The notes below the pieces were generated by a model. That model was not told the DNA's origin. It did not search any database and saw only the letters and a list, made by a program, of their open reading frames with translations. Both the position numbers and the translations under genes were made by a program. Shown here piece by piece: positions 3,499-22,482 of a DNA stretch of 25,645 nt. Location: IMG/VR virus record IMGVR_UViG_3300021963_000590, positions 1 to 25,645 of that record. One strand, given 5' to 3'. This stretch comes from a virus. Position 1 is the first letter of the stretch. Each line of letters opens with the position of its first letter.

Positions 3499-4992
3499 TT
3501 AGTTTTCCAGCTTGCGCCGGATGGCGTCCTGCGCCTCCTTGCCGGATTCCGCGACAGGCCGCTTGAGCTGCTTGTACGCGTTCACGACCGGCCTTCCGTC
3601 TACGGTGTCGAAGCTATCCTGGATAGACTTCGGGATTCCCGTGACTTCCGGCTGCTCGTCATCTTCGGCAAAGATAGGCACCCACAGCCCGCGACAATGC
3701 GAGTGGACGATGTCGAGACGAGCCATAGGATCGTCCGGCTTCACCACACGCTCATCGAGAGCAAGGCACATGGCGCACGTCCGCGCATCGAGCACTTCCG
3801 ACCGTTGGAAGGCGACGATACGGGATACGTTGTCAAACATAACGGACGCCCGGCCGCGATTGATATATTGGCCTACGACCGTTCCTGACGTGTTAATGAT
3901 AGCACGGGAAGCCTCATCGCTTACACGGCTGCGCACGCTCGAAACGATGGCCGACACGGCCGCCCCGGCGGCAAGCCCGTCGAGGATCGCACCCTTGGTC
4001 ACGTTCTCAAGGTTATCGGCATACGCATCGGCGATCAGCTTGGAATCCGTGTTCATGATCTGCGTGATCTCGAGCGGAGTGCCTGGACGCCCCAGCTTCA
4101 ATTCCGTCGCCGCCATGTCCTTGCCGAAGTCAAAGGACTTCTTGACGTATTTGTTCAGGATGGCGCGGATATCCGTCCGGAACATGAAAAGGATGGCCGC
4201 GATGGCAAGGATGTCCCCTGCGTCCAGCTTCTTTTTCGTCTGTTGCGCGACGCGGTCGATCTCCGGACGCGTGACGGCCATGATTTCCTCCTCCATTCCC
4301 GTCTGGATGGTGTTCATCTCGCCATTGAGCGTCTCGAAATCGATCCGGCGTTCCTGCATGGACAGCTTGCGCGTCATCGGCTTGAACGGAACCTCGGAAA
4401 GATGCTCGTAATGGCACACTTCCTTGAAGTCGAACGCCTTGGAGCGCTTCACCGCGATTCCCGTCTGAGCCACCTTGCGCCATTCGCCAAGGTTTTTCTC
4501 AAGGCTCGCCTTGTTCGCCATCGCCCGCTCAAGGCGGGATTGCAAGCGCGCCTTCCGGTCAGGGTCATCCGTGCTCACCAGCATGTCGGTGATCTTGGAC
4601 ACCAGGCCGTTGTACCGAGAGATGCGAGCCTCGCCCTTCGCAATGTTCGCGGCGGCGTCCGCCTTCGCCTTCTTACCTCCCGCTTCCTTCTTGATGGCTT
4701 CCAGCGTCTTGCGCGTGGTCTTCATCTTGGAATCCAGCTCTTTCAGGCGTTTCTTGGCCTTTGCCTTTTCCTTGATCCCCATCTTCTTCCCCTTGGCCTT
4801 CACTTCCTCGCGGATCTGGTCGCGCTCGGCCTTCGCTTCCTCGTACTCGACGCGCTTGGCGACGAAATTATCCATGTACGCCGAACCGGCGCTTGTCCGA
4901 TTGGATGCGCCGGAATCGTCACCAAATCCCTTTTTGAGAGCCTCGGAGATCTTCTTTTTCGTCTCCTCGCTCATCGGCTTCTTGGTAGGCAT
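3499..4992 (-). CDS. MuF/SPP1 gp7-like head morphogenesis protein
   Basis: A 497-residue protein. The C-terminal third has the MuF-type core: VGQYINRGRASVMF, AFQRSEVLDARTCAMCLALDERVV and IVHSHCRGLWVPI. The CAMC and HSHC pairs probably form a small zinc site. Before it lies a long charged coiled-coil region (residues about 45-180). The first 20 residues (PMSEETKKKISEALKKG) closely resemble the NUMOD3 DNA-binding motif of homing endonucleases, which is unusual here. MuF proteins are minor capsid proteins ejected with or near the portal and needed for head assembly. The gene follows the portal by five bases, the normal order. The ATG at 4992 is preceded by the portal stop and CCTGT, without an SD sequence. 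Confidence 0.85.
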   Translation of the reverse strand: MPTKKPMSEETKKKISEALKKGFGDDSGASNRTSAGSAYMDNFVAKRVEYEEAKAERDQIREEVKAKGKKMGIKEKAKAKKRLKELDSKMKTTRKTLEAIKKEAGGKKAKADAAANIAKGEARISRYNGLVSKITDMLVSTDDPDRKARLQSRLERAMANKASLEKNLGEWRKVAQTGIAVKRSKAFDFKEVCHYEHLSEVPFKPMTRKLSMQERRIDFETLNGEMNTIQTGMEEEIMAVTRPEIDRVAQQTKKKLDAGDILAIAAILFMFRTDIRAILNKYVKKSFDFGKDMAATELKLGRPGTPLEITQIMNTDSKLIADAYADNLENVTKGAILDGLAAGAAVSAIVSSVRSRVSDEASRAIINTSGTVVGQYINRGRASVMFDNVSRIVAFQRSEVLDARTCAMCLALDERVVKPDDPMARLDIVHSHCRGLWVPIFAEDDEQPEVTGIPKSIQDSFDTVDGRPVVNAYKQLKRPVAESGKEAQDAIRRKLEN

Positions 4993-12252: not shown

Positions 12253-12429
12253 TTAGGAAGTCGCCGCGATGACGTATGCCATGGCGCAGCAGACGATGCT
12301 GATGAATAAGGTGGTGGAGAGCAGCGTGTAGTCGCGGTAGGCCTGGGACACGGTAGATTCCTCGAGCGCGACGTCGCCCATGAAGAGGGCGACGACGAAC
12401 ATGAAGACGAAACCAGCGAAAGACATCAT
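12253..12429 (-). CDS. Small two-helix membrane protein
   Basis: A 58-residue protein, MMSFAGFVFMFVVALFMGDV then a polar turn (ALEESTVSQAYRDYT) and LLSTTLFISIVCCAMAYVIAA. That is two transmembrane helices joined by a charged loop. The first ATG (12429) overlaps the upstream stop as ATGA; a second ATG follows directly. The topology would suit a small holin or another inner-membrane protein, but no lysis gene is adjacent, so I leave the function open. Confidence 0.6.
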   Translation of the reverse strand: MMSFAGFVFMFVVALFMGDVALEESTVSQAYRDYTLLSTTLFISIVCCAMAYVIAATS

Positions 12430-12650
12430 ACGTTCCGCAGATTGTGCAGGGCGACCGACGTGACGCGCTTCCCCGTCAGCTTGTGGTATTTGCCACCTCG
12501 CGCCACTTCGATCCTCGCACGCTTCTGCTTCTTGCCCTTGAACGTCATGGAGAACACCTCGAGGATCTTCCCTTTGGCCTCGAACCGCTTCCCATGGCTC
12601 TTGCGTGCCGTGAATAAAATACTGTCTCCGACTTTCAATGTGCTTGGCAT
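12426..12650 (-). CDS. Small basic beta-barrel-like hypothetical protein
   Basis: A 74-residue, lysine-rich protein. LKVGDSILFTARKSHGKRFEAKGKILEVFSMTFKGKKQKRARIEV reads as a small SH3/KOW-like beta barrel, with VGD and KGKILEV turns typical of nucleic-acid-binding barrels. The C-terminus is RVTSVALHNLRNV. I recognise no exact family. A 54-base hairpin (12680-12733) lies just upstream. The ATG at 12650 has no SD sequence, and the stop overlaps the next start as ATGA. Confidence 0.55.
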   Translation of the reverse strand: MPSTLKVGDSILFTARKSHGKRFEAKGKILEVFSMTFKGKKQKRARIEVARGGKYHKLTGKRVTSVALHNLRNV

Positions 12651-12679
12651 ATCGCCATTTGTGTTAATGAGGTTATTCC

Positions 12680-12733
12680 CTCCCGCGAGAGCCGAATGCG
12701 CTTAAGGACACACTCGGACACCTCGCGCGGGAG
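12680..12733 (-). ncRNA. 54-base two-stage hairpin upstream of the 12426-12650 gene
   Basis: CTCCCGCGCGAG pairs with CTCTCGCGGGAG with one mismatch, then a four-base interruption, then CCGAGTG pairs with CATTCGG (one G-U) around a 12-base loop. No T-run follows on either strand, so it does not look like a terminator. It fills the gap between two genes and may be a 5' regulatory or processing element. Confidence 0.5.
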
Positions 12734-12744
12734 AAAGGCCAGCC

Positions 12745-13008
12745 TCAAGCGCTGACCCGTGGGCATAACGCGGATTGCGTCATGGCCGGAGGCGGGATGG
12801 AATACCCCGCAAAGACGACGTGAGGCAACGTGCGCTCACGGTCAATGGCCTCGATATCGAGGCCGCGCCGCTTTCCGTAGAAATCGACGGTCACTTTGGC
12901 CTCGGAAATGAGGCCGCGATCCGATGCTTGGAGCAAGACGATCAGCTCCTTGTCGGTGATCTCGCTCGTAAGCTCGATCCCTGGCACGTTCTTGACGTAG
13001 ATACGCAC
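12745..13008 (-). CDS. Hypothetical protein with a GTG start and a true Shine-Dalgarno site
   Basis: An 87-residue protein, MRIYVKNVPGIELTSEITDKELIVLLQASDRGLISEAKVTVDFYGKRR and onward, with an alternating beta/helix pattern but no recognised family. The start is the GTG at 13008: GGAGGAAAACA precedes it, giving a clear SD at normal spacing. This is the one strong SD leader among the minus-strand genes here. Reading on upstream would run into the tRNA-like element, so the shorter start is preferred. Confidence 0.6.
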   Translation of the reverse strand: MRIYVKNVPGIELTSEITDKELIVLLQASDRGLISEAKVTVDFYGKRRGLDIEAIDRERTLPHVVFAGYSIPPPAMTQSALCPRVSA

Positions 13009-13034
13009 TGTTTTCCTCCATCGTTTGAAAGAGC

Positions 13035-13118
13035 GGCCTAGGCAGGATTCCAACCTGCGATCCTTCACCGTTGAAGTTGTCTCGGGTTATCCCCTGGCTT
13101 CTTGGGGCTATCTAGGCC
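13035..13118 (-). ncRNA. tRNA-like element: perfect acceptor and T arm, abnormal middle
   Basis: GGCCTAG at the 5' end pairs perfectly with CTAGGCC at the 3' end (7 bp). Directly next to the 3' strand is a T arm, GCAGG-TTGGAAT-CCTGC, where TTGGAAT differs by one base from the usual TTCGAAT. A CCCC/GGGG helix sits where a D arm would be. The remaining hairpin, CTTCA-ACGG-TGAAG, has only a four-base loop, so no normal anticodon loop can be drawn. Length is 84 bases and no CCA is encoded. It may be a decayed class-II tRNA, a tRNA mimic or an odd functional tRNA. It lies in the gap before the GTG-start gene. Confidence 0.4.
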
Positions 13119-13135
13119 ATTTGTGACTTGCGCCA

Positions 13136-13223
13136 CTGTGAAGAGGTGATGTGATCTTGCTTTCAGGGATTTATTGCCCAACCTGTCATGACAGGAGGAT
13201 GCACCTTCATCACCACCTCACAG
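13136..13223 (-). ncRNA. 88-base structured element with long terminal inverted repeat
   Basis: The ends CTGTGA...GGTGATG and CATCACC...TCACAG pair with 6 bp, a small internal loop and 7 bp. Inside are the perfect hairpin CCTGTCATGACAGG and GGG-CAATAAAT-CCC. It stands 17 bases from the tRNA-like element, with no gene between 13008 and 13236. The size is tRNA-like, but I cannot fold a standard cloverleaf. Confidence 0.4.
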
Positions 13224-13235
13224 CGAGGGGCGATG

Positions 13236-13436
13236 TTAATCGCCCTCTTCTGCCTCGTCTAACTCCTGTTGTGTTACCCCGCTCTTATCAATCTGTCTTA
13301 GGCACAATTTGCAACTAACATCATTGATATATCTTGTGGTAGTCGCTGACTTTTTGAACGGTTTCGGCTCTGAACATGCGGTGATCGCAAATCGTCCACC
13401 ACCGACAATTCCTTTGTATAAATGAATGACAGACAT
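13236..13436 (-). CDS. Small zinc-binding phage protein
   Basis: A 66-residue protein, MSVIHLYKGIVGGGRFAITAC, then ATTTRYINDVSCKLCLRQI and an acidic C-terminus (TQQELDEAEEGD). The pattern of an upstream cysteine, a Thr-rich strand and a V-S-C-x-x-C-L pair is common in small phage zinc proteins that begin with a histidine-bearing strand (IHL). No function is known to me. A GNRA hairpin ends just before the start codon, with GGAAAGAT as a weak possible ribosome site. Confidence 0.55.
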   Translation of the reverse strand: MSVIHLYKGIVGGGRFAITACSEPKPFKKSATTTRYINDVSCKLCLRQIDKSGVTQQELDEAEEGD

Positions 13437-13443
13437 ATCTTTC

Positions 13444-13638
13444 CGGCTTTCGCCGCCGTGAGGAGTGGTAGACCGCGTGGATCGGCTGACCCTGATCCTT
13501 TGGGTCTGCGGTATTGAGGCCGTGGTCTACTACCACTCGCGGCGACACATGACGCTCATGCTTGTCATTTGGGCGTCATGTCTCGCTTTCGCTCCGCAAC
13601 GAACGGAGTGGGCTTTCGCCCGCAACAGGCCACATGAC
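13444..13638 (-). ncRNA. GNRA-rich structured RNA with mutually exclusive helices
   Basis: On the minus strand this stretch contains three GCGAAAGC tetraloop hairpins (13610-13621, 13585-13592, 13444-13455). GTCATGT (13638-13632) can pair with ACATGAC (13581-13575) to close a junction holding GGGCGAAAGCCC and CTCCG-TTCGTTG-CGGAG. The same ACATGACGC (13581-13573) can instead pair with GCGTCATGT (13555-13547). A further 16-bp interrupted helix joins 13454-13474 to 13524-13544. GAAA loops appear only in the minus-strand sense, which gives the orientation. The gap between the genes at 13436 and 13714 holds no convincing protein. It may be a 5' regulatory RNA of the zinc-protein gene or an independent RNA. 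Confidence 0.5.
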
Positions 13639-13713
13639 AGGGAGGAGGAAAACCCCACCATGCGACCCGTTGCGGACGAACGCCTATTGGCGCGGAATTC
13701 ATGGAGTGAACCA

Positions 13714-13881
13714 TCAATGCCCGCCAGCAGGCGTCGAGGCGACAGCCTCGCAACTACTGCCGACGCACACGGCGTCGGATGCGACCTTCACATTCCAAAG
13801 AGCCGTAACCGCCGCCGCGACGAATGCCGAGACGATGCAGGCCAGCCAGATGTGTCTAAGTGTCGCGCGAATCCTTCCCAT
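13714..13881 (-). CDS. Small single-helix membrane protein
   Basis: A 55-residue protein, MGRIRATLRHIWLACIVSAF then VAAAVTALWNVKVASDAVCV and a Gly/Ser/Ala tail with a second cysteine (GSSCEAVASTPAGGH). A basic N-terminus precedes one transmembrane helix at about residues 12-28. The start overlaps the end of the 52-residue upstream gene by 26 bases in another frame. I recognise no family; the call rests on the membrane pattern and gene packing. Confidence 0.45.
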   Translation of the reverse strand: MGRIRATLRHIWLACIVSAFVAAAVTALWNVKVASDAVCVGSSCEAVASTPAGGH

Positions 13882-14014
13882 AGCGTTTCTGCTTTCCCGG
13901 CTTCTTGCGCGGCTTCCGCGCAATATCTCGCATGTACTCCTTGTACCGCTCGATCCCTCCGAGCCGTTCCACCATGACCTTGTGGGAACGATGCGCCATC
14001 TCTTGGGGCGTCAT
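13856..14014 (-). CDS. Small basic hypothetical protein on a possible leaderless mRNA
   Basis: A 52-residue protein, MTPQEMAHRSHKVMVERLGG then IERYKEYMRDIARKPRKKPGKQKRYG and a short polar end. It is helical at the start and strongly basic at the end, so nucleic-acid binding is possible. The frame resembles the 17951-18139 product in ending with a Tyr-rich basic segment. The ATG at 14014 lies exactly six bases after a TATCAT -10-like box, as in the ParB promoter. Confidence 0.55.
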   Translation of the reverse strand: MTPQEMAHRSHKVMVERLGGIERYKEYMRDIARKPRKKPGKQKRYGKDSRDT

Positions 14015-14020
14015 GCCCCC

Positions 14021-14048
14021 ATGATAACACAACCTAGCGTGCGTGCGC
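14021..14048 (-). promoter_or_regulatory. Class-2 promoter placed for a leaderless transcript
   Basis: On the minus strand GCGCACGCACGCTAGGT (14048-14032) is followed by TGTGT, TATCAT (14026-14021), six bases and ATG. The GCACGCTAGGT element and the exact six-base gap match the site at 11370-11389. The distance from the element to the -10 box is four bases longer here. Confidence 0.45.
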
Positions 14049-14407
14049 TAACGCATCAGCGCGACGACCGTGGAAAGAAGGAAGATGACGCTCCACCATG
14101 CGGAAAGAAGCAGGAACAGGCGCTGGAACGGATCAGCCTTTCGCCACCCGTTCCGCACCGTGAGCGCCGCGCGTTCCGCGAAAGAGATGTCCTTGAGGCG
14201 CTCCGGATCGGTGTGGCGGATCTTGTCCATGTGATCGAAGAACGCCCCGCCAAGGCTCCGCACCTCGTCATACGAGCGCACGTTCGCCTGTCCGACGACC
14301 TGATCGCCCTGGCTTCCGTAGAAGATGAACCCTCCCAAATCGTTATATTCCTTCACCTCCGGCTCCTTCCCCTCGACCTCGTGAATGACGAATACCTTGT
14401 ATGGCAT
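14048..14407 (-). CDS. Hypothetical protein with C-terminal membrane anchor
   Basis: A 119-residue protein. The N-terminal domain (MPYKVFVIHEVEGKEPEVKEYNDLGGFIFYGSQGDQVVGQANVRSY) is beta-rich and soluble-looking. The end, PFQRLFLLLSAWWSVIFLLSTVVALMR, is a transmembrane helix, so the soluble part is probably tethered to the membrane by a C-terminal tail anchor. I recognise no family. It begins five bases after the TM2-domain gene, another membrane protein, and the two may act together. Confidence 0.6.
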   Translation of the reverse strand: MPYKVFVIHEVEGKEPEVKEYNDLGGFIFYGSQGDQVVGQANVRSYDEVRSLGGAFFDHMDKIRHTDPERLKDISFAERAALTVRNGWRKADPFQRLFLLLSAWWSVIFLLSTVVALMR

Positions 14408-14412
14408 ATGCT

Positions 14413-14616
14413 TTACGCGCCGTAGCGCTCTTTCCATTTTGAATCAGGCGTACAGATGATGATGATAGCATCAATGAAGCCGAGGATCGCCGGGACGAAC
14501 GTCCAGCAGAACAGCAGGTAAACGAGCCCGATGCCCGGCTTGTCAAGATAGAACTTATGGATGCCGAGGCCACCAAGGAAGATGGCGAGCAGCACCGCGA
14601 TACCTTTGGATTTCAT
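14413..14616 (-). CDS. TM2-domain membrane protein
   Basis: A 67-residue protein beginning MKSKGIAVLLAIFLGGLGIH, then KFYLDKPGIGLVYLLFCWTF and VPAILGFIDAIIIICT. This is the TM2 domain: two membrane helices around the conserved GGxGxHKFYL turn and an aspartate in the second helix. TM2 proteins occur in bacteria and phages; their function is not well defined. I chose the ATG at 14616 because the domain normally starts MKSK; an ATG at 14631 adds five residues. The gene is complete. Confidence 0.8.
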   Translation of the reverse strand: MKSKGIAVLLAIFLGGLGIHKFYLDKPGIGLVYLLFCWTFVPAILGFIDAIIIICTPDSKWKERYGA

Positions 14617-14646
14617 AATTGGTATATTCATTATTTAATAGTTTTT

Positions 14647-14916
14647 TTACGCGGCGTCCCCACCAAAGAACGGCGGATGCCGTCTCGGCGCGACGTGCAT
14701 CAATTCCTGCAATACGTTGTCATGCGTATATCGGAAACGCTCAGGAAAGGCGCGGTAGAAATCGACCTGTCCATAGGTATCCGTCTTTGTGTTGAGCATC
14801 GCGCAGAGTAGCTCGCCCGACCAAGGGATCTCCCTTACCGAGTATCCTTTCTGCCTGGCTTCGACCACCATCTCGCCGATGGTCGCGGCCATGTTTTCCG
14901 TGTCGATCTGCTTCAT
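14647..14916 (-). CDS. Hypothetical protein
   Basis: An 89-residue protein, MKQIDTENMAATIGEMVVEA, then RQKGYSVREIPWSGELLCAM and FYRAFPERFRYTHDNVLQELMHV, ending PPFFGGDAA. The ATG at 14916 comes one base after the stop of the upstream gene (TGATATG), so they are probably coupled. It reads as a compact helical protein with aromatic patches. No family recognised. Confidence 0.55.
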   Translation of the reverse strand: MKQIDTENMAATIGEMVVEARQKGYSVREIPWSGELLCAMLNTKTDTYGQVDFYRAFPERFRYTHDNVLQELMHVAPRRHPPFFGGDAA

Positions 14917-17753: not shown

Positions 17754-17762
17754 AGATATGAG

Positions 17763-17888
17763 TTACGTTGTGTACATTAGAGGCACCTTGTCGCACGTCA
17801 GGCAGTAGCCATTCTCGTCGATGAACTCGACCTCGATCTGGCTAACACAAACCCGACCGCATGACGGGCACGCGATTGGCTCAGTCAT
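17763..17888 (-). CDS. Very small zinc-ribbon protein, first gene behind P1
   Basis: A 41-residue protein: MTEPIACPSCGRVCVSQIEV, then EFIDENGYCLTCDKVPLMYT and a final Thr. CPSC and CLTC form a minimal zinc ribbon. It starts about 20 bases after the expected transcription start of promoter P1 and ends nine bases before the ERF start. It is too short to place in a family but has a normal leader and sits in the operon, so I take it as a real gene. Confidence 0.6.
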   Translation of the reverse strand: MTEPIACPSCGRVCVSQIEVEFIDENGYCLTCDKVPLMYTT

Positions 17889-17916
17889 ATGTTTTTCGTT
17901 AGTGGCTTATGTCATT

Positions 17917-17945
17917 ATTGTGACATGTTAGCCCTAACGTGTCAA
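17917..17945 (-). promoter_or_regulatory. Promoter-operator P1
   Basis: Minus strand: TTGACA (17945-17940), 17 bases, CACAAT (17922-17917). The spacer is the palindrome with half-sites TGACACGTTA and TAACATGTCA around GGGC (17921-17944). It drives the zinc ribbon, ERF and downstream recombination genes. Its -10 box is the weakest of the four. Confidence 0.7.
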
Positions 17946-17950
17946 CATGT

Positions 17951-18430: not shown

Positions 18431-18751
18431 TCAGCGCGCCTTTGCCGAGCCACGAATGAGGTGGCAAGGAGCACACAGCCAAACCACGGTAAGCGGTTCA
18501 GAATGATCCTCGTGATGCTTTTCGAGAATGCGACGCTTACCGCAGTCCCCACATCGAGATCGGCGCTTTAGCTTCCCTCGATGTTGATAGACGTTGGCAT
18601 ATGCGCGCGCCCTGCTTTTCTTTTTCTGTTCCTCAGTGAGTTCCTTATAGGAAGGACGCCAACCTCGCTGGTAAGCGTTATGACACTTCCGGCAGTACCT
18701 CTGCCCCGGTCGCCGCTGAACACGCTTTTTACATTTAGAGCATTGTTTCAT
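18431..18751 (-). CDS. HNH-like zinc protein (possibly degenerate endonuclease)
   Basis: A 106-residue protein. CSKCKKRVQRRPGQRYCRKC forms a first zinc knuckle, and CGDCGKRRILEKHHEDHSEP with WLCAPCHLIRG a second, in the HNH arrangement (HHED...LCxxCH). Phage proteins of this type are common and often annotated HNH. The typical Asn and second catalytic His are not clear, so nicking activity is uncertain. The ATG at 18751 is preferred, because the hairpin at 18785-18822 marks the sequence before it as 5' leader; MFLDILDAMKQ from 18775 is possible. Confidence 0.6.
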   Translation of the reverse strand: MKQCSKCKKRVQRRPGQRYCRKCHNAYQRGWRPSYKELTEEQKKKSRARAYANVYQHRGKLKRRSRCGDCGKRRILEKHHEDHSEPLTVVWLCAPCHLIRGSAKAR

Positions 18752-18784
18752 GGCGTCCAGTATATCAAGAAACATCCGCGCGGC

Positions 18785-18822
18785 GGCCGGAGTGGTGAAG
18801 TCGAAACCTCTCCACACCGGCC
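18785..18822 (-). promoter_or_regulatory. UUCG-capped leader hairpin in the P2 transcript
   Basis: On the minus strand three helices stack with single mismatches: GGCCGG, GTGG and GAGGT pair with ACTTC, CCAC and CCGGCC, capped by TTCG. That is 15 pairs in 38 bases. No T-run follows. It stands between P2 and the HNH-like gene, so it would be in the 5' leader. Confidence 0.55.
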
Positions 18823-18862
18823 ACCGCCCTCCTGACAGCCAGTATTTCGGCTATCTATAGAG

Positions 18863-18891
18863 ATTATGACATGTTAGCGGTAACGTGTCAA
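18863..18891 (-). promoter_or_regulatory. Promoter-operator P2
   Basis: Minus strand: TTGACA (18891-18886), 17 bases, CATAAT (18868-18863). The palindrome half-sites TGACACGTTA and TAACATGTCA surround CCGC (18867-18890). The stop codon of the gene ending at 18888 lies within the -35 box. It drives the HNH-like gene and the two genes after it. Confidence 0.75.
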
Positions 18892-21015: not shown

Positions 21016-21024
21016 ACAGGCTGG

Positions 21025-21147
21025 TTATTTGGCGAGGACGGCGTGGAGGGCGACGAGGCGCTTGTATTCCTCCGTGCCGGTCTGGCCTTCGATAATAAGG
21101 GTGTCGATCCGTTCATTGACCATCTTGAGCGTCTGGGACTTGTTCAT
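21025..21147 (-). CDS. Very small helical protein, first gene behind P4
   Basis: A 40-residue protein, MNKSQTLKMVNERIDTLIIE then GQTGTEEYKRLVALHAVLAK. Helical and charged; no family recognised. It starts about 28 bases after the expected P4 transcription start, with the leader AAATAACCAAAACAAAT, and ends ten bases before the transglycosylase start. Clean spacing on both sides makes it a likely real gene; it might be a regulator or partner of the lysis protein. Confidence 0.6.
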   Translation of the reverse strand: MNKSQTLKMVNERIDTLIIEGQTGTEEYKRLVALHAVLAK

Positions 21148-21181
21148 ATTTGTTTTGGTTATTTGTTTAGCTTACATCTAT

Positions 21182-21210
21182 ATTATGACACGTTAGGGCT
21201 AACATGTCAA
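21182..21210 (-). promoter_or_regulatory. Promoter-operator P4
   Basis: Minus strand: TTGACA (21210-21205), 17 bases, CATAAT (21187-21182). The palindrome half-sites TGACATGTTA and TAACGTGTCA surround GCCC (21186-21209). It drives the 40-residue gene and the transglycosylase. It marks the boundary with the plus-strand island. Confidence 0.75.
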
Positions 21211-21398
21211 TTATAGCTAAACAAAGAGCTACAAGCGGAACCCACGGATTATCCACCCCTGTGGGCAAGTCCGAACCCTTGCTTATTCGACGCGTTAGGC
21301 GTATCTTGACCTCAGCCTATGAGAGCGGCTATGATCGTAACGGATACGAAAACGGTATCCGCCTCTATCCTCTCCATCTCCAAGATGGCAGAGCTTAG
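21204..21398 (+). CDS. Possible plus-strand small protein next to the P4 operator
   Basis: A 64-codon frame, MSIIAKQRATSGTHGLSTPV then GKSEPLLIRRVRRILTSAYE and SGYDRNGYENGIRLYPLHLQ, ending DGRA. It stops ten bases before a long hairpin with a T-run on the plus strand, as a real gene would. Against it, the ATG lies inside the P4 operator palindrome, no plus-strand promoter is clear, and codon use differs from the minus-strand genes (more TAT, GAT, CGT). If real it would be divergently placed to the lysis block, with its start hidden by the operator. Confidence 0.35.
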   Translation: MSIIAKQRATSGTHGLSTPVGKSEPLLIRRVRRILTSAYESGYDRNGYENGIRLYPLHLQDGRA

Positions 21399-21408
21399 CC
21401 GCTTTCAC

Positions 21409-21443
21409 GCAAAAGCCCGCTCTTAAAAGGCGGGTTTTTGCGT
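21409..21443. terminator. Long bidirectional terminator-like hairpin
   Basis: CGCAAAAGCCCGC pairs over 13 positions (one G-U) with GCGGGTTTTTGCG around a nine-base loop. There are A- and T-rich arms on both strands, so it can end transcription in either direction. It separates the 21204-21398 frame from a noncoding stretch. Confidence 0.7.
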
Positions 21444-21591
21444 TTCGCCGGGCTCGTGCTCCACCTGCATGATGGGGGGCGAAATAGGTCAAAGTTCCCA
21501 TTAAGAAAGCGTGGCAACATGCCTCCAGCCTCATTACGCTGGCTTGTTGTGAGAATGCAGAATGTTAAATGGCACGGCCTGGGAGAAGGTA

Positions 21592-21704
21592 GGCAACCCG
21601 TTACAACCCGTAACGCTTTGCCGAGGCCCAACTGCTCCCTGCTTCACCGAAAAGGTGTCGACTTAGTAGCTGCCAGCTTCCTCCAGCCGGTTACGACCCG
21701 TAAC
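21592..21704. repeat. Paired inverted repeats GTTAC-RACCC-GTAAC, 90 bases apart
   Basis: GTTACAACCCGTAAC at 21600-21614 and GTTACGACCCGTAAC at 21690-21704 differ by one base and start exactly 90 bases apart. Each is also two 10-base direct repeats of the type CRRCCSGTWA. The first is flanked by GGCAA/TTGCC arms. Such pairs are typical of protein-binding operators or iterons. Confidence 0.6.
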
Positions 21705-21757
21705 CAGCGGAATGGACCAAGGAAGTGCATCAGTCCCTGAACCCCCTAACACACAAT

Positions 21758-21777
21758 GGGAGGGGGTAGGGGGAGGG
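21758..21777 (+). other. G-quadruplex-capable tract
   Basis: Four G runs, GGG-A-GGGGG-TA-GGGGG-A-GGG, with one- or two-base loops. The CCCCCTA at 21742-21748 can instead pair with TAGGGGG at 21767-21773, so a hairpin competes with the quadruplex. Confidence 0.55.
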
Positions 21778-21832
21778 CTGTGCCAACGCCAACCAGCTCT
21801 ATTATCTCGCTTGTTAGCAAAATACCCCTTCT

Positions 21833-22033
21833 ATGGTGTGCCGTTCCTGTGGCGCGGATATGCGCTTGAAACAAAGGACCGTTTGGCCTGAAAGGCTAAA
21901 GCGCCAAGCCTACTTCTTCACGGCTTGGTGGCTCTGCCCTTCCGGGCACATCGTCAACATCGAAAGCGAAAAGCATTGGCCTTCCGAATTCGATTCCTTA
22001 TGCCCTAACAAACCGACGGAATCATTCCTATGA
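21833..22033 (+). CDS. Plus-strand zinc-ribbon protein
   Basis: A 66-residue protein, MVCRSCGADMRLKQRTVWPE then RLKRQAYFFTAWWLCPSGHI and VNIESEKHWPSEFDSLCPNK. CRSC with C-P-S-G-H makes a four-ligand zinc ribbon, typical of small conserved phage or host proteins. It is read against the direction of almost every other gene. Its stop overlaps the start of the next plus-strand gene (ATGA), which supports both as real. No specific function is recognised. Confidence 0.65.
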   Translation: MVCRSCGADMRLKQRTVWPERLKRQAYFFTAWWLCPSGHIVNIESEKHWPSEFDSLCPNKPTESFL

Positions 22034-22134
22034 CCTGCATGTTCTGCAATACGCCAACCACATGGAAGATCATCGAGACGGACGACAACCTGATCGCCCT
22101 CTGCTCTAAACACGAATCGTTCGACTTGCTATAG
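22030..22134 (+). CDS. Plus-strand mini zinc protein with in-frame amber and 21-codon extension
   Basis: A 34-residue protein, MTCMFCNTPTTWKIIETDDN then LIALCSKHESFDLL. CMFC with C-x-x-H gives a minimal zinc site. After the TAG at 22132 the same frame continues for 21 codons (SPDLYGIPVLDKSQAGLRHR plus K) to TAA at 22200, and a terminator follows 17 bases later. The extension reads like protein, so amber readthrough or a recent nonsense mutation is possible. The start overlaps the upstream stop by four bases. Confidence 0.55.
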   Translation: MTCMFCNTPTTWKIIETDDNLIALCSKHESFDLL

Positions 22135-22217
22135 TCTCCCGACCTGTACGGGATTCCTGTCCTCGACAAGAGCCAGGCCGGTCTAAGACACCGGAAGTAA
22201 TCCCCAAAGCAACGGAG

Positions 22218-22240
22218 CCCCGGATAACATCTGGGGTTTT
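22218..22240 (+). terminator. Rho-independent terminator of the plus-strand pair
   Basis: CCCCGGAT pairs with ATCTGGGG (one G-U) around AAC, followed by TTTT. It stands 17 bases after the end of the amber-extended frame. A second small hairpin, CCGGT-CTAAGAC-ACCGG, precedes it. Confidence 0.65.
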
Positions 22241-22242
22241 GG

Positions 22243-22251
22243 TTATCCACA
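22243..22251 (+). promoter_or_regulatory. DnaA-box-like site
   Basis: TTATCCACA is a perfect match to the bacterial DnaA box consensus. TTATCCACC near 21249 is a weaker second copy. One good box can occur by chance or as part of a promoter region, so an origin role is unproven. Confidence 0.4.
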
Positions 22252-22256
22252 GACTG

Positions 22257-22440
22257 TTGACAAGTCAGAAATTCCTGTATCATTGTGTGGATGATCGCTC
22301 ACGCCTTCATCTCCTGCAGCCAAAGAAATCGCTAAAACCTAGGGCGGACGCCCGTCCCAATGCCGGTGTAGACGGCAGACGGCCGTAACCGACGCCCCGG
22401 CAAAGTACGCGACGCGTTGCGCGAGAGATCGTGCAACTGA
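22257..22440 (+). ncRNA. Possible plus-strand structured RNA with its own promoter
   Basis: TTGACA (22257-22262) and TATCAT (22278-22283) could be a promoter, though the 15-base spacer is short. The next 150 bases have no gene longer than 14 codons but contain GGGC-GGAC-GCCC and a TGCCGG/CCGGCA outer helix enclosing ACGGC-AGACG-GCCGT, and end at the terminator at 22441. A small structured RNA fits; a leader on the other strand is an alternative, because the stretch also lies after the tail genes. Confidence 0.4.
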
Positions 22441-22469
22441 AAAACAGCCCATTTGCGTGGCTGTTTTTT
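22441..22469. terminator. Bidirectional terminator after the tail genes
   Basis: AAAACAGCC pairs with GGCTGTTTT over nine bases around a nine-base loop, with A and T runs on both sides. It lies 13 bases past the stop of the hub gene on the minus strand and would also end plus-strand transcripts. Confidence 0.8.
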
Positions 22470-22482
22470 AATCCGTCTTTTA

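Follow-up and report, generated by a model that had tools for sequence, protein, structure and literature searches.

What is encoded by a gap of nearly three hundred bases in the accessory region of an uncultured phage, where no protein is evident? The window analyzed here, the whole stretch of 25,645 bases, is a virus record in which end repeats are absent. Its source is an uncultured tailed phage whose recognizable genes lie on the minus strand; we take these to include terminase, portal, MuF-like, RusA-like, SSB-like, and ERF-like genes, some of the names being assigned from sequence. The closest relative found, viral contig L002, shares ∼63–64% identity in terminase. Terminase searches of viral contigs returned 1 and then 17 loci (16 besides L002), and the same search of genome contigs gave 0 matches. 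The phage records searched contained no close cultured relative of this lineage. Single proteins were equally isolated: ERF and ORF 14014 had no homologues in the viral contigs searched, and the 14437–14051 and 13020–12748 proteins had none in the phage records searched. Within this window, the original prediction had placed a GNRA-rich RNA switch at 13444–13638.

The structured region proved to be larger than this interval. The whole intercistronic gap spans 13437–13713 (277 nt) and is flanked by two minus-strand ORFs, one small and of membrane type (about 13881–13714), the other small and Cys-containing (13436–13236; 66 aa, C...CxxC, no family match). This second ORF had no homologue in the viral contigs searched, and phages yielded only 2 chance-level matches. 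Read on the minus strand, the gap folds to a minimum free energy of −134.1 kcal/mol, and 0 of 200 shuffles folded as low (z −7.29). When the whole window was scanned in 510 folds of 150 nt with 20 shuffles apiece, the lowest z, −7.32, fell at 13601–13750 on the minus strand and was equalled by 18701–18850 minus. The structure is thus centered at, and beyond, the upstream boundary of the earlier interval. The interval 13444–13638 by itself scores better on the plus strand (z −6.05) than on the minus (z −4.19); therefore, only the long hairpin described below, hairpin A, clearly indicates the strand.

No credible gene fills the gap, as had been claimed. The overlapping ORFs tested on both strands gave no family match at the curated cut-off, and a coding role was rejected on this ground. 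The gap does end at an ATG, at 13436, and the Cys-containing ORF that begins there is what had been called a zinc protein, but it matches no family. The statement that no named RNA class has this arrangement also held: Rfam 15 gave 0 matches at the gathering cut-off in the whole window. Relaxed thresholds brought up precursors of eukaryotic microRNAs and a fragment of a long RNA (E 0.06 to 8.7, far under gathering scores and at chance level), and a known class was rejected. Taken together, the folding models support a structured sense-strand noncoding RNA in the gap 13437–13713, whose earlier limits were wrong.

The predicted fold of the full gap is a row of hairpins: A, a small one, B, C, and a GAAA-capped one. 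Hairpin A (13615–13680, minus) joins arms 13680–13653 and 13642–13615 through 28 contiguous pairs, 21 Watson–Crick and 7 G-U, with neither A-C nor any other mismatch. Neither the window nor the 222 kb of 17 related loci contains a longer contiguous helix when G-U pairs are allowed, the runner-up having 20 bp, and the chance expectation for such a helix in the window is about 6e-6. Its 10-nt loop, UUUUCCUCCU (13643–13652, minus), is predicted to be unpaired (P 0.98–1.00). The remaining members, all on the minus strand, are a 6-bp CUCCGU/GCGGAG hairpin (13592–13608) present as a helix of the minimum-energy fold; hairpin B, ACAUGACGC/GCGUCAUGU, of 9 bp (13547–13581, P 0.996; inverted repeat I1); hairpin C, a long interrupted helix (13455–13543) with helices of 4, 3, 3, 7, and 5 bp; and a GGC-GAAA-GCC hairpin (13445–13454), whose probability in the full gap, 0.63, drops to 0.11 once 13714–13760 is folded along with it.

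Do these repeats act in the RNA or in the DNA? The window contains many inverted repeats, and some 250 nt away from the gap there is a perfect palindrome, TGTCATGACA, as might be expected if the feature served replication, packaging, or recombination, or provided protein-binding sites. However, on the gene strand every one of the 7 non-Watson–Crick positions of hairpin A is a G-U pair, and hairpin A folded alone reaches −47.3 kcal/mol on the minus strand versus −27.6 kcal/mol on the plus. Hairpin A is therefore shaped as gene-sense RNA, not as DNA. The GC skew, moreover, shows no switch at the gap, and we consider a DNA-level feature very improbable.

The motifs that gave rise to the idea of a switch are present. 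Three GCGAAAGC boxes occur on the same strand, minus, at 13446, 13585, and 13612 (the window has 6, counting both strands); three GTCATGT/ACATGAC 7-mers have minus-strand starts at 13638, 13581, and 13553 (of 5 in the window); and the long interrupted helix exists at 13543–13455. Their predicted behavior is different from that proposed. Of the three GNRA hairpins claimed, only that of the 13453 box forms (P 0.63); the 13619 box sits in the 28-bp stem when the full gap is folded (hairpin P 0.000), and the 13592 box rarely forms (0.06). The middle 7-mer was said to pair with either the upstream or the downstream copy in mutually exclusive helices. Its pairing with the downstream copy, which is hairpin B, has a probability of 0.996–0.998 across all three windows folded, whereas its pairing with the upstream copy reaches only 0.0003 in the earlier window and vanishes (0.0000) when the full gap is folded. 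Forcing the alternative costs 5.0 kcal/mol in the earlier window and 29.9 kcal/mol in the full gap. A two-state switch was thus rejected by partition-function and forced-pair folding.

The origin of the apparent switch can be traced to the interval chosen. The strongest helix runs from 13680 to 13615, and only its 3′ arm lies inside 13444–13638. The upstream GTCATGT arm is paired to 13657–13663 of hairpin A, beyond the earlier window (P near 1 for 5 of the 7 bases, 0.60 and 0.91 for the remaining two), and the 28-bp hairpin that holds it would be transcribed first. The switch layout appeared because the earlier window cut hairpin A in half, and the case illustrates the pitfall of inferring a switch from a window that halves a hairpin. 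What stands of the original prediction is a structured sense-strand RNA in a noncoding gap before a small Cys-containing ORF; the switch itself does not. The same calculations bear on a broader proposal, that the Cys-containing ORF at 13436 is controlled from the gap by a switch, by a ligand- or protein-sensing leader, or by a translational operator to which a protein binds. The gap, ending at the ATG of that ORF, would be well placed for such a leader, but the competing fold is worse by 5 kcal/mol in the earlier window and by 30 in the full gap, and no Rfam class reaches the gathering score, relaxed matches being at chance level. Control of this kind is improbable.

Only one sequence underlies the fold of the gap 13437–13713, and no homologues of its RNA were found among the phage and plasmid records or the viral and genome contigs searched. 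In phages, blastn gave one 38-nt match (E 0.07–0.1), judged to be chance; in plasmids it gave no match to the region; and comparison of the region with the 17 terminase relatives by blastn and nhmmer gave nothing convincing. Searches with exact patterns returned 0 loci from genome contigs, 0 from one search of viral contigs, and 8 and 4 loci from two others. When folded, the 8 loci showed varied hairpins with G-rich and C-rich ends pairing on their own, and no common stem was apparent by eye. The 4 loci were rejected as homologues, having the hairpin-B arms alone in common and matching no protein of the window at E 1e-4; one of them, L028, had an additional 19-nt match (E 0.13). The failure to find relatives weighs against an independent small RNA cut out of the gap and acting in trans, as do the lack of any promoter-like site within 12400–14700 and the presence there of a single terminator-like site (14051–14034), where shuffles give 2.3. 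Although the RNA is compact (277 nt), highly structured, and set in a noncoding gap of its own, we hold this origin to be quite improbable.

The loop of hairpin A suggests a more specific role. Together with 13642–13640, loop positions 13652–13643 complete a CCUCCUCCC motif, whose last three bases, CCC, are paired with GGG; CCTCCTCCC occurs once in the window, in this loop. The ribosome-binding site of gene 13008–12745 (GTG start) is GGAGGAAAAC (13010–13019, minus; repeat I5), and GUUUUCCUCC at 13653–13644 of hairpin A is complementary to it (13019–13010) at 10 of 10 nt. Hairpin A might then be an antisense regulator whose CCUCCUCCC loop would pair with GGAGGAAAAC in cis or in trans, block ribosomes, and possibly invite RNase III. 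Indeed, among 36 candidate starts, of which 13006, 13893, 14404, and 18754 are not at start codons, GGAGGAAAAC gave the best predicted loop duplex (−17.8 kcal/mol; second −13.9). With 35 start regions, one doubtful start being dropped and 13878 and 14404 being 3 nt off, permutation gave 10/3000 with the loop shuffled and 26/3000 with CCUCC kept. The loop is open (P 0.98–1.00), as is most of the AAAAC part of the target. Against this, the GGAG of the target sits in a local hairpin (P unpaired 0.00–0.04), the loop also matches 11 nt within coding sequence at 4294, and by a simple estimate a 10-nt inverted repeat arises by chance about once per 1.5 kb. The match was noticed first and tested afterward, many start codons in the list used for the Shine–Dalgarno test were chosen by the analyst, and no relatives were found in which to compare loop or target. 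Antisense regulation by hairpin A is a minority possibility; the narrower claim that the anti-Shine–Dalgarno loop of the 28-bp hairpin specifically represses the gene 630 nt downstream, in cis or in trans, possibly touching host GGAGG messages, is rather unlikely. Elsewhere in the window, strong Shine–Dalgarno pairing is rare (−9 kcal/mol is attained at 4 of 36 candidate starts, against the 16S tail assumed), and many start regions have A-rich leaders. At 13184–13195 lies a perfect palindrome around GTCATGAC that, with an adjacent minus-strand CCTCC, resembles 13633–13646.

Two known systems are useful for comparison with this antisense arrangement. One is formed by the sRNAs SmelA075 and SmelA099 of Rhizobiales, which we take to be likely relatives of the CcsR sRNAs of Rhodobacter. 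In the account given in PMC3927594, the identical 9-nt loop motif acts as an anti-Shine–Dalgarno sequence in these rhizobial sRNAs, which present the exact CCUCCUCCC motif on a hairpin of variable stem. As described there, they have three or four motif hairpins, whereas the gap RNA has one, CCTCCTCCC being single in the window, and no Rfam match. The other is the icaR 3′-UTR of Staphylococcus aureus, which, according to PMC3868564, provides a precedent for the mechanism: a pyrimidine-rich anti-Shine–Dalgarno sequence in the UTR is matched to a specific ribosome-binding site, and pairing between the UTRs yields double-stranded RNA that RNase III cleaves. Unlike in icaR, the motif of hairpin A is carried in a loop on a 28-bp stem, upstream of the gene it would target, and the pairing is predicted. 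If the loop is functional, it would offer a simple, testable case of RNA–RNA control inside a phage message.

Is the gap exceptional in its surroundings? Thirteen gaps of at least 20 nt were compared, a 14th of 1467 nt being left out for length. The minus-strand z fell below −2.5 in 5 of the 13, with values of −7.62 for the gap 13437–13713 in this comparison, −4.69 for 12651–12744, −3.17 for 13009–13235 (plus strand −1.15), −3.65 for 17754–17950, and −6.4 for 18752–18887. Over all 13, the minus-strand z was the lower in 8, tied in 1, and higher in 4. The gaps 17754–17950 and 18752–18887 each contain a promoter-like operator palindrome, which contributes to their score. The other three structured gaps are consecutive, at 12.6–13.7 kb, each preceding one of three small genes. 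A further long hairpin (13130–13229, limits approximate, minus) lies between the Cys-containing ORF and gene 13008–12745, and in the next gap but one a minus-strand hairpin at 12677–12736 ends 26 nt before the ATG at 12650. L002 also has a structured gap (z −4.59), lying ahead of its homologue of gene 12650, which was identified by protein homology; the 20-bp hairpin of this gap (1463–1532) ends 27 nt before an ATG at 1560, although more than one start is possible, and is without sequence likeness to the window hairpin at 12677–12736. Structured gaps nearby and in L002 suggest a general habit of this neighborhood. The consecutive gaps and the counterpart in L002 favor intercistronic processing or stability elements, a group for which RNase III sites provide the known example.

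Several other elements were seen in the course of this work. A 24-nt palindrome, TGACAYGTTA....TAACRTGTCA, occurs three times (17921–17944, 18867–18890, and 21186–21209), each copy coinciding in part with TTGACA- and −10-like boxes of the minus strand; from their sequence, the three are probably operators of one phage repressor. After the operator palindrome in 18752–18887, the minus strand carries a strong leader hairpin of 11+4+5 bp, behind which lies a gene that is presumably HNH-like. A tRNA-like element at 13116–13030 (minus) has a 7-bp acceptor, GGCCTAG/CTAGGCC, a T-arm loop TTGGAAT, and, in its fold, a D-arm-like stem without a proper anticodon arm; by eye, its D-loop C may match T-loop G56. 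Neither ARAGORN nor cmscan called it. At a comparable place, L002 has a tRNA (901–979; RF00005, 42.4 bits), which ARAGORN assigns to Cys with the odd anticodon aca. Related phages share a conserved long intergenic inverted repeat, TATCCTCTCACTCTTTGTTTA ... GGGTGAGAGGATA (L004:9144–9231, L006:14487–14577, and L017:14457–14547), in which both sides have changed near the ends; it is possibly a conserved RNA or an operator. Finally, a 15-bp A/T-flanked hairpin at 21407–21443, in a gap without clear genes (21016–22482), resembles a bidirectional intrinsic terminator.

For the gap 13437–13713 itself, folding models make an mRNA processing or stability element, a static row of very stable hairpins, the most likely reading, to which we give about an even chance of being correct. 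A read-through message of the accessory genes would fold at the gap. Its 28-bp hairpin could then offer a double-stranded substrate to a host nuclease of the RNase III type, or block exonucleases, and the messages on the two sides might be separated or given different lifetimes. RNase III requires an RNA duplex of roughly two helical turns at least, and the 28 contiguous minus-strand pairs of hairpin A reach that length. The RNase III sites of T7 are conserved and contain internal bulges. Unlike these sites, hairpin A is uninterrupted and stands in a row of other hairpins, and RNase III cleavage here is putative.

The gap RNA most likely represents an ordinary type of intercistronic RNA in phages, with one hairpin of unusual length. 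The UUCG hairpins of phage T4 are intercistronic hairpins. Likewise, stable hairpins lie shortly upstream of phage starts among the T4 translational operators and intercistronic hairpins (PMC3014915); those of the gap are far longer and arranged in a row, and no binding protein is known for them. T7 R1.1 and other early sites, together with E. coli rpsO-pnp, are also long sense-strand stem-loops between genes, with G-U pairs; PMC8708148 describes R1.1 as an RNase III target and places RNase III cuts between the coding sequences of rpsO-pnp. If the processing reading is true, this locus would be a strong example of phages dividing their accessory genes by RNA structure.
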